A stretch of DNA of 52,622 bases from a virus. Every line of letters starts with the position of its first letter. Within the stretch, counting starts at the first letter, position 1. Below are positions 4,163-45,761 of the stretch, piece after piece. Made by a program: the position numbers and the translations under genes. Where the stretch lies: positions 1 through 52,622 of the IMG/VR virus record IMGVR_UViG_3300023223_001004; one strand, 5' to 3'. The notes beneath the pieces were generated by a model. The model worked only from the letters and a program-made list of their open reading frames with translations, did not search any database and was not told where the DNA came from.

Positions 4163-4552
4163 ATGGACATAAACGATCTAACAATTGGTCAAGCTAAAGA
4201 ATTATCATCAATGTTTGGTGGTCAAAGTCAGTTGGTTTCGGCTGGAATTTTAATAGACGCTATCGGCAAGTATGTAATTGTGCGAAGCAGAAATGAAGGT
4301 ATTAATGCGGGAATATTAAAGGCTGCTGATGATACAGGATGTGTTTTATCTGATGCCAAAAGGGTTTGGTATCATAAGCCAAAGGATAGTAAAACTTCTT
4401 GGTATGAAGGAGTAGCTAAAAGTGGGTTGGATGATAGTTCTAAGATATCTTGCTCTGTGTCTGAAAAATATATCATTGAAGATTACTCGATAACCGTATG
4501 TACTGATGAAGCAAGGGAGTCGATTTGTGGGATGAAGTCTCATGAAAGTTAA
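4163..4552 (+). CDS. Conserved small cassette protein, possibly DUF6948-like
   Basis: This 129-residue soluble protein has no recognised catalytic motif. It opens MDINDLTIGQAKELSSMFGG and contains GKYVIVRSRNEGINAG, then WYHKPKDSKTSWYEGVAKSGL, which I associate from memory with a phage/prophage family of unknown function (DUF6948). The start at 4163 places GGGA 6 nt upstream, as at 22041 and 24990. The ATG at 4157 would be too close. It is the only plus-strand gene in the late region, has its own box promoter, and overlaps the Gly-rich gene by 11 bp. This looks like a moron. The function is unknown. Confidence 0.7.
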   Translation: MDINDLTIGQAKELSSMFGGQSQLVSAGILIDAIGKYVIVRSRNEGINAGILKAADDTGCVLSDAKRVWYHKPKDSKTSWYEGVAKSGLDDSSKISCSVSEKYIIEDYSITVCTDEARESICGMKSHES

Positions 4553-4790
4553 CTCAATAAAGCAAAACTGGAATGGCTATGGCTCTGGCGATGGCGATGG
4601 CTCTGGCTATGGCGATGGCTATGGCTCTGGCTATGGCGATGGCGATGGCGATGGCTCTGGCTATGGCGATGGCTATGGCTCTGGCTATGGCGATGGCTAT
4701 GGCGATGGCTCTGGCTATGGCGATGGCTATGGCTCTGGCTATGGCGATGGCTATGGCTATGGCTATGGCTCTGGCTCTGGCTATGGGTGA
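4542..4790 (+). CDS. Gly/Tyr/Ser/Asp repeat protein encoded by a hexanucleotide minisatellite
   Basis: An 82-residue product has a short head (MKVNSIKQNWN) followed by about 70 residues in which every second residue is Gly, alternating with Tyr, Ser or Asp. It overlaps the 129-aa gene by 11 bp (ATG inside its last codons), so the two are probably coupled. Each 6-nt unit encodes Gly-X, so gain or loss of units keeps the frame. Such sequence is expected to be disordered, sticky or phase-separating. No function is known to me. The same DNA also opens long Ala-Ile and Met-Ala frames, which are artefacts of the repeat. Confidence 0.65.
   Translation: MKVNSIKQNWNGYGSGDGDGSGYGDGYGSGYGDGDGDGSGYGDGYGSGYGDGYGDGSGYGDGYGSGYGDGYGYGYGSGSGYG
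4575..4786 (+). repeat. Hexanucleotide minisatellite GGC(TAT/GAT/TCT)
   Basis: About 35 tandem hexamers of form GGCTAT, GGCGAT or GGCTCT, arranged in higher-order 12-, 18- and 24-bp periods. It is GC-rich relative to the surrounding AT-rich genome and prone to slippage. Confidence 0.95.
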
Positions 4791-4805
4791 ATAAAAAATT
4801 TCTAG

Positions 4806-4821
4806 GCCGAAATAAATCGGC
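4806..4821. other. Small hairpin after the repeat gene
   Basis: GCCGA, a 6-nt loop, then TCGGC. There is no T-run after it on the plus strand, so it is a weak terminator candidate at best. Confidence 0.35.
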
Positions 4822-4854
4822 GTGACTTTCCAGTCCACATAAACACTAAAACAA

Positions 4855-4885
4855 GACGAAAATAACTATTATGGTTATTTTCGTC
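4855..4885. terminator. Perfect 12-bp stem between cassette and terL 3' ends
   Basis: GACGAAAATAAC, loop TATTATG, then GTTATTTTCGTC. It lies between the convergent Gly-rich gene and terL. No strong T-tract follows on either strand, so it may act as a bidirectional barrier or a transcript-end stabiliser rather than a classical terminator. Confidence 0.5.
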
Positions 4886-4886
4886 A

Positions 4887-6858: not shown

Positions 6859-6881
6859 AAAGCCCCTCTAAATTGAGGGGC
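6855..6881 (-). terminator. Rho-independent terminator ending the left early arm
   Basis: On the minus strand GCCCCTC, 6-nt loop, GAGGGGC, then six Ts. It lies between the last early gene (6974) and the late promoter. Confidence 0.88.
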
Positions 6882-15012: not shown

Positions 15013-15035
15013 AAAAAAACCGCTAACGTGAGCGG
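15013..15035 (-). terminator. Rho-independent terminator
   Basis: Minus strand CCGCT, ACGTT-type loop, AGCGG followed by seven Ts. It ends the unit 17126-15096 just before the next box promoter. Confidence 0.85.
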
Positions 15036-15095
15036 CTACAATGTGAATTAGTTTAAACTTGAAACTGGCATTACACGTATTAAAGTTGATTTGTT

Positions 15096-15290
15096 TTAAC
15101 ATCCCAGTTGCTTAGTGCAAGCTTTAACATCAACATCAGTATCAAAAGGCATGTTATCAGGTATCTCAACAGTTTCACCACACGACAAACAGACTGCCAC
15201 ATCTGAATTTTCAACTGTGTAATCCATTACTCCACCATTCTTACAGTCTTGATGGTATAAACAGTATCTTGGGGTCAGCTTGATAATCAT
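15096..15290 (-). CDS. Small zinc-ribbon-like protein
   Basis: 64 residues with paired cysteines: YCLYHQDC near 9-16, CLSCGETVEI near 34-37, and ACTKQLGC at the end. A zinc or other metal site is likely. Such short ribbons are common in phage early operons and may bind nucleic acid or RNA polymerase. Role unknown. Confidence 0.6.
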   Translation of the reverse strand: MIIKLTPRYCLYHQDCKNGGVMDYTVENSDVAVCLSCGETVEIPDNMPFDTDVDVKACTKQLGC

Positions 15291-15298
15291 TATATAAA

Positions 15299-15460
15299 TT
15301 AATCCAAATAACCTTCTTGCTTGGTAATACCACTACCAGAACCACTACTAATTATTTCTCTGGTAATACCTCCACCGGCACCATGATTTGTACATACATC
15401 ACCGTGACCATGAATAGCTTCTCCGCCACCCTCACCCATCACACCTTCTGAAACTTTCAT
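15299..15460 (-). CDS. 53-aa Gly-rich protein
   Basis: A perfect AGGAGG lies 5-6 nt upstream of the ATG. The product has Gly runs (MGEGGGEAIHGHGD, GAGGGI, SGSGSG) and His. It lies immediately downstream of the structured segment 15482-15619, so its translation could be affected by that structure. No family known. Confidence 0.6.
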   Translation of the reverse strand: MKVSEGVMGEGGGEAIHGHGDVCTNHGAGGGITREIISSGSGSGITKQEGYLD

Positions 15461-15481
15461 AACTACCTCCTAAATAATGTC

Positions 15482-15619
15482 CACCCTCTATTTTTACGCG
15501 CCGAGGGTGACCGGAATTGGCAGTTAGTTTCCGCTACCGGATTAAAGCGCTTTACTATTGGTGAAAGACTCTAACCATACCCGATTGATAAAGCCCTTTA
15601 TTCTTTATCGGCTAGAGCC
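15482..15619 (-). ncRNA. Candidate structured RNA without coding potential
   Basis: Between two genes lies a run of inverted repeats. Stem 15482-15488/15503-15509 is CACCCTC/GAGGGTG. Stem 15519-15523/15534-15538 is flanked by CCGG repeats. A palindrome at 15543-15554 is TAAAGCGCTTTA. Stem 15567-15576/15610-15619 encloses 15587-15593/15603-15609 (GATAAAG/CTTTATC). The 10-bp outer stem pairs fully only in minus-strand RNA through two G-U pairs, which supports transcription on that strand. No ORF longer than about 25 codons with a start is present. It does not look like a tRNA. Confidence 0.5.
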
Positions 15620-15678
15620 CTTCACGAATAATACTTAAACCCCAATCTTTCTCGTTAATAAAATCCCGAATTTCATCT

Positions 15679-15909
15679 CTAATCCTCCTTGAACTGATCT
15701 TTAGCAATCAAAGTATCTATCTTGGTTTCATAATTATTAAGACAGTCGCCGCCCAATGTACGCAGCAACTTATTTTCTAATTCAGTAATGAAAGATTTCA
15801 TTCCATCAATAGTTAAAATACTATGTTCACTTAAATGGTTAATTCTACACCATGCCTTATCAGCTGTGTATTTATGTCTATACAACAATCTAACTTCTGT
15901 CTTTGTCAT
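15679..15909 (-). CDS. Small early protein, unknown (76 aa)
   Basis: A helical, basic N-terminal half (TKTEVRLLYRHKYTADKAWCRI) is followed by an acidic helical half. The ATG at 15909 has AGGAG 6 nt upstream. The one at 15912 is too close. No family recognised. Confidence 0.55.
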   Translation of the reverse strand: MTKTEVRLLYRHKYTADKAWCRINHLSEHSILTIDGMKSFITELENKLLRTLGGDCLNNYETKIDTLIAKDQFKED

Positions 15910-15943
15910 CATTATCTCCTAAATAATACAAAGCTAATTTATT

Positions 15944-18662: not shown

Positions 18663-18689
18663 TTTTATTCCCCGATCGTTAAGTCTGAT

Positions 18690-18730
18690 AAGTATTACAC
18701 AGGAATCATTCTAGACAGATTAGACCAGTT
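18690..18730 (-). promoter_or_regulatory. FadR-like box plus -10, leftward side of the control region
   Basis: Minus strand GACAGATTAGACCAGTT on the plus strand at 18714-18730 is the box. After 16 bp comes TGTG-TAATACTT (18690-18697) for the 150-aa gene. Confidence 0.72.
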
Positions 18731-18750
18731 GAATATTGTATAAATATCTA

Positions 18751-18800
18751 GTTGTGTAATAAATCAACTTGAATTGGTTTATTTACTTGTGTATTATAAT
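18751..18800 (+). promoter_or_regulatory. Rightward early promoter(s) lacking the box
   Basis: Two similar extended -10 elements in tandem: TTGTG-TAATAAAT (18752-18764) and CTTGTGTAT-TATAAT (18786-18800). Upstream of the second is TTGGTT or TTGAAT at non-ideal spacing. No FadR-like box precedes them, unlike most other early promoters here. Confidence 0.6.
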
Positions 18801-18826
18801 GCCACAAAATAACTAAAGAGGTTTAC

Positions 18827-45360: not shown

Positions 45361-45761
45361 GCTACAGGCTCTCCGTGGAATTCAACTTCAAATTCTCCAT
45401 CTTGAGAAAAAGCAATTTCAGAATCGGTTTTATTGAACATGTTACGGAAACTTCTTGTGAAATTTACCGCATCAGGATCGGTAGCACTAATCGCTACTCC
45501 AGTTAAATCATCAGTTAAGCGTTTCCACTCTTCATATAGATTAACATTTGAAGCAGTAGAAATAAGAGTAAACATAACTTTAGATACTTTCGATTCTGTA
45601 TCATTGGTTACCACATTTTCTGTTGATCTACCGCCAGCAGATTGAGCTCTAATGTTGATTTCACCAATACCGCCTACGTATTTAAACGAATTGGGCTTGA
45701 TAGAGATCAGTTCATTATTGACCTGTATTTGCGGGGTAGCTAAACCTTTGCTAGTCGCCAT
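45357..45761 (-). CDS. Tail tube protein, Mu gpM (gp40)-like
   Basis: 134 residues. KPNSFKYVGGIGEINIRAQS near 20-40, then VVTNDTESKVSKVMFTLIST and DGEFEVEFHGEPVA at the end follow the Mu-type tube pattern. It forms the inner tube polymer. It sits directly after the sheath gene and overlaps the chaperone by 4 bp. Confidence 0.87.
   Translation of the reverse strand: MATSKGLATPQIQVNNELISIKPNSFKYVGGIGEINIRAQSAGGRSTENVVTNDTESKVSKVMFTLISTASNVNLYEEWKRLTDDLTGVAISATDPDAVNFTRSFRNMFNKTDSEIAFSQDGEFEVEFHGEPVA

Follow-up and report, generated by a model that had tools for sequence, protein, structure and literature searches.

Gene neighborhood of the gap

The window analyzed here is the whole 52,622 bp stretch of the virus record IMGVR_UViG_3300023223_001004, positions 1 to 52,622, and belongs to a contractile-tailed phage. 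It codes for a tail sheath, a baseplate hub and wedge, a portal, a DnaB-like helicase, and a RecT-like protein, and NinB and NinG are also encoded. The coding fraction of the genome is ~91%. A gene-free gap, 15461–15678, occurs in a leftward series of small ORFs in which all neighboring genes are on the minus strand. The boundaries of the gap were set by the flanking ORFs only; both are on the same strand, and no terminator lies between them. The genes and signals around the gap are:

15679–15912, minus strand: ORF of 77 aa, upstream of the gap
15635–15676, minus strand: putative 13-codon ORF, MKFGILLTRKIGV, with a Shine-Dalgarno sequence AAGGAGG at 15690–15684 (7-nt spacing) and a stop just 5' of the main hairpin
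15299–15460, minus strand: Gly-rich ORF of 53 aa, downstream of the gap, with a Shine-Dalgarno sequence AGGAGG at 15471–15466
15096–15290, minus strand: Cys-rich ORF of 64 aa, the final gene ahead of the terminator
15018–15037, minus strand: intrinsic terminator AGCCGCTCACGTTAGCGGTT-TTTTTG, which follows the Cys-rich ORF and ends the leftward transcription unit

Family and homolog searches found nothing for the 77-aa ORF (15912–15679). The Gly-rich ORF likewise has no identified family or homolog, and its codon score of 19.4 is strong given its length. A ATTATTTAGGAG string stands ahead of the start codons of both ORFs (15461–15480 and 15910–15930, minus strand); it has three near matches in the window, a number that is not unusual by chance. 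The terminator at 15037–15018 is 0.5 kb downstream of the hairpin described below, which is ~3 kb into the operon when counted from the divergent gap at 18663–18826. Elsewhere in the window, a strong intrinsic terminator (GCCCCTC-AATTTA-GAGGGGC, then TTTTTT) is found on the minus strand at 6862–6881, upstream of a 154-aa ORF that precedes the terminase gene.

Predicted fold of the main hairpin

A sequence-only reading of this DNA had pointed to five inverted repeats in the 138 bp from 15482 to 15619, and all are present. One of them, a 10-bp stem with two G-U pairs that can form on the minus strand only, is as described. The gap is predicted to form a real and unusually strong orphan hairpin in the mRNA that is larger than that reading had seen. 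Its parts, with two of the repeats, are:

15554–15632, minus strand: main hairpin of 6 bp, a C-C mismatch, and 16 bp, with arms 15632–15610 and 15576–15554
15619–15610 with 15576–15567, minus strand: the 10-bp stem, with G-U pairs 15618–15568 and 15612–15574
15609–15603/15593–15587, minus strand: apical 7-bp hairpin on the main helix, with a 9-nt loop; these arms are the inverted repeat GATAAAG/CTTTATC
15586–15577, minus strand: one-sided 10-nt bulge of the main hairpin
15540–15647, minus strand: possible outer extension, a G-U-rich 9-bp helix (15647–15639/15548–15540) that encloses the main hairpin and overlaps the end of the 13-codon ORF
within 15482–15619: inverted repeat AAAGCGCTTT

Pairing in the arms of the main helix covers 22 of 23 positions, including four G-U pairs, and is interrupted by the single C-C mismatch. 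The complete main hairpin has 16 A-U, 9 G-C, and 4 G-U pairs and a minimum free energy (MFE) of −30.9 kcal/mol. All four G-U pairs are possible in minus-strand RNA only. The outer extension appears in a longer fold (−41.1 kcal/mol) and is weakly supported.

Stability of the fold relative to chance

The 15482–15619 slice, which had been called highly structured, is unremarkable when taken alone (z = −1.37 on the minus strand, with 20 of 200 shuffles equally stable, and −0.99 on the plus strand) because the slice stops on the right inside the main helix. The description does hold once its right edge is moved 13 bases to 15632: the 79 nt of 15632–15554 have a z of −6.32 on the minus strand, with none of 200 shuffles as stable, and −4.24 on the plus strand. 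For the whole gap, z is −4.23 on the minus strand (0/1,000 shuffles as stable) and −1.07 on the plus strand (136/1,000), in agreement with the proposal that the feature belongs to minus-strand RNA. The 3' part of the gap (15461–15553) is not significantly structured by itself, with z between −1.0 and −1.5.

Of the 23 gaps that span 70 nt or more, just one other, the 4791–4886 gap with a terminator-like hairpin, lies beyond a z of −4. The hairpin there, at 4855–4885, has a near-perfect 15-bp stem, lies between convergent genes where the terminase gene ends, and resembles a terminator on the minus strand. A scan of the two strands in 84-nt segments, from which a hexanucleotide repeat was left out, identified 15549–15632 as the top composition-corrected fold of the minus strand in the window (−5.29). 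This value is beyond the extremes of all 14 shuffled strands, which range from −3.97 to −4.97. The omitted repeat array (4573–4786, ~36 units) is part of a plus-strand ORF at 4542–4790 that encodes a Gly-(Tyr/Ser/Asp) repeat peptide, and at about −62 kcal/mol per 100 nt its plus strand has by far the strongest fold in the window.

An uninterrupted run of at least 17 pairs also occurs in 9 of 60 shuffled strands, and the whole-window significance of the hairpin is therefore modest, about 1 in 15 or better. The case for an element is a joint one, made by the helix and its extension together with the gap and the strand bias.

Coding potential, known RNA families, and relatives

None of the reading frames in the gap shows clear codon evidence of coding, and comparison of the gap frames to Pfam and PHROGs produced no convincing match. 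A hidden gene was rejected on the codon score and on the family searches of the frames; a conserved ORF across the region, named earlier as the finding that would speak against an RNA element, was not seen in either. The description of the segment as lacking a gene is accurate for ordinary ORFs, but it overlooks the putative 13-codon ORF at 15676–15635. A frame that overlaps this ORF (15707–15615, minus strand, ending ..RDEIRDFINEKDWGLSIIREGL*) is protein-like with a borderline codon score, and it may reflect a one-base assembly error or a lost gene.

ARAGORN found no tRNA or tmRNA, and no Rfam 15 family, tRNA included, reached its gathering score. Sub-threshold Rfam matches on the element are to eukaryotic microRNA hairpin models and to a coronavirus element at an E value of 2. 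Eukaryotic microRNA hairpin models are drawn to any long hairpin. On the plus strand, 15499–15522 (GCCGAGGGTGACCGGAATTGGCAG) is similar to the 5' part of bacterial tRNA-Leu. This likeness is probably due to chance, with no tRNA support from ARAGORN or Rfam. No intrinsic terminator was called within 15461–15678, and the hairpin was rejected as one: it has no U tract, and the helix is followed by AAAGCGC. A repeated or mobile element was also rejected, as a model of the hairpin detected no further copy, either in the window or in the records for four distantly related loci.

Relatives of the element were searched for in several ways. No relative was found by blastn against phages, plasmids, and E. 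coli, by scanning viral contigs for matches to five proteins encoded in this arm or nearby, or in the genome contigs scanned, and direct searches for the helix pattern found no homolog. Six arm proteins were tested, and none has a relative in the phage records, IMG/VR viral contigs, and genome contigs searched. A scan of viral contigs guided by the terminase yielded three relatives with 41%–46% identity, of which two lie in contigs of 5 kb. Synechococcus phage Ssp-JY42 gave the best match to the terminase, at 40%, but it is not close kin, and the hairpin model found no match in its record.

These results bear on whether the hairpin has any present function. It could have arisen by chance or be a relic of a gene or insertion lost from the gap. 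The failure to find relatives, the modest genome-wide significance with a run length matched in shuffled strands, and the borderline codon score of the frame that overlaps the 5' arm of the hairpin are all consistent with this. Against it, no shuffle of the gap was as stable, the strand asymmetry is strong, and the gap lies in a densely coding genome with strong Shine-Dalgarno starts on both sides. We consider an absence of function unlikely.

Small RNA and antitermination as possible roles

Four roles were proposed in the sequence-only reading: a small RNA, a transcript-processing site, an antitermination element, and a translation switch. A trans-acting small RNA could be produced from the hairpin region either independently or by excision from the mRNA. 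The hairpin is compact, stable, and located in a gap, and phages are known to encode small RNAs that are processed from mRNAs, such as DicF (cited in PMC12197685). However, the sequence immediately upstream has no credible promoter, the 3' end has no intrinsic terminator, and no perfect complementarity of at least 12 nt occurs elsewhere in the window. Lacking both a promoter and a terminator of its own, a small RNA here is decidedly unlikely.

An antitermination RNA like put of phage HK022 would allow polymerase to read through the downstream terminator. The put RNAs are ~70 nt long, have two stem-loops, and occur just after or within ~270 nt of early promoters (PMC9378689). The locus resembles HK022 put in having tandem stem-loops in a phage early-type transcript, with neighboring stem-loops upstream of the intrinsic terminator at 15037–15018. 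It differs in size, fold, and position, as the main hairpin measures 79 nt, is accompanied by further stems, and lies far into the operon. It also has no Rfam hit and no sequence match. There is no sigma-70-like promoter near the element, and the terminator in question stands at the natural end of the operon. The features checked for antitermination are absent, and we give this role very little weight.

Short ORF and the predicted Shine-Dalgarno lock

The two ORFs on either side of the main hairpin share a strong Shine-Dalgarno sequence. AGGAGG is depleted in the window (six occurrences on both strands versus 13 expected), and only three are 4–9 nt ahead of an ATG. The mean expected by chance for such spacing is 1.8, so three is not unusual; the notable point is that the element is flanked by two of these three AGGAGG-ATG starts. 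The starts and the structures predicted between them and the main hairpin are:

AGGAGG-ATG starts (n = 3): the 13-codon ORF, the Gly-rich ORF, and a 134-aa gene next to the tail sheath gene, with its start at 45761
15511–15540, minus strand: small hairpin A, CCGG/CCGG (15540–15537 with 15514–15511) with an inner UAGCGG..CUGCC, not significant alone
15482–15509, minus strand: hairpin CACCCUC/GAGGGUG with a 14-nt loop and arms 15509–15503/15488–15482, just upstream of the Gly-rich ORF Shine-Dalgarno sequence, in a 3' domain with a z of about −1
15460–15526, minus strand: predicted Shine-Dalgarno lock, in which 15526–15519 and 15515–15513 pair with 15470–15460

In the full transcript, the Shine-Dalgarno sequence of the Gly-rich ORF has a pairing probability of ~0.9–1.0, with 15526–15513 as its partner. 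This anti-Shine-Dalgarno segment can instead pair with 15540–15537, which makes hairpin A and the lock mutually exclusive, and hairpin A is predicted to form first during transcription.

This arrangement suggests a leader-peptide translation attenuator, in which ribosomes on the 13-codon ORF would steer refolding so that 15526–15513 is held either in hairpin A (ON) or on the Gly-rich Shine-Dalgarno sequence (OFF). As in erm-type attenuators, there is a short ORF with a strong Shine-Dalgarno sequence, then stem-loops, and then a second gene with a paired Shine-Dalgarno sequence. The short ORF, with its own ribosome-binding site, is directly 5' of the hairpin, although its translation is putative. 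The flanking AGGAGG-ATG starts and the exclusive alternative fold also favor attenuation. Unlike the erm type, the modeled lock ignores the leader ribosome: it persists with a ribosome on the stop of the 13-codon ORF, so that no stall-dependent sequestration was obtained, and it also remains when the main hairpin is deleted from the model. Opening the Gly-rich Shine-Dalgarno sequence costs 3.1 kcal/mol, an ordinary value (18th among 49 genes). The stability of the 3' domain is unexceptional, and the 13-codon peptide has no run of a single amino acid that could act as a sensor motif. We regard attenuation of this kind as unlikely.

A translation switch driven by the main hairpin was rejected as modeled, given the ordinary opening cost and a lock that is independent of this hairpin. 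The earlier suggestion of a switch for the Gly-rich gene agrees with the predicted pairing of its Shine-Dalgarno sequence but not with these two results, and such a switch is possible but unsupported. It is more doubtful still that the locus represents an undescribed phage RNA regulator outside the known attenuator and riboswitch families. In such a module, strong translation of the 13-codon leader would combine with the long hairpin and a bistable lock on the Shine-Dalgarno sequence to control the Gly-rich protein.

A candidate processing or stability site

The long helix is predicted to lie between two cistrons, and a transcript-processing site, as also proposed from the sequence, therefore fits best of the four roles. 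The predicted anatomy is that of a processing or stability site: a long helix between same-strand cistrons, without a U tract, and followed by the last two genes and their terminator. We tentatively favor a cis-acting intercistronic hairpin of the leftward polycistronic transcript, most likely an RNase III-type processing or stability site. The hairpin is probably of a known kind, and its most likely role, as predicted from the fold, is that of a cutting or stabilizing signal in the message.

The predicted helix of 22 bp with one mismatch is long enough for such a site. In a model substrate, E. coli RNase III is reported to need no more than 12 bp, and it is structure, not sequence, that decides which targets the enzyme picks (PMC8708148). 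Transcripts of lambda, T7, and T3 are known RNase III substrates (PMC5371410). Similar to the T7 R sites (e.g., R1.1) and the lambda sites, the element would be a long, imperfect, non-terminator hairpin located between the cistrons of a polycistronic phage message. Its layout departs from that of T7 R1.1, with a 22-bp helix that has a single mismatch and, close to the tip, a bulge on one side, and its cleavage is putative. RNase III targets cannot be predicted from sequence, so cleavage of this hairpin is a guess from its shape.

As a processing or stability site, the element would act as follows. Leftward transcription would run through the gap, and the helix of ~22 bp would serve as an RNase III-type site for processing or stability. 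Cutting or blocking at the hairpin would split the upstream small-gene message from the Gly-rich 53-aa and Cys-rich 64-aa genes. The downstream pair may in this way gain its own 5' end and expression level, aided by the strong Shine-Dalgarno sequence.

As an orphan sequence, the element would extend the list of examples without introducing a new principle, unless the leader ORF does turn out to work as a switch. If it is functional, this uncultured phage would set unequal gene levels within one transcript by means of RNA structure rather than a promoter.
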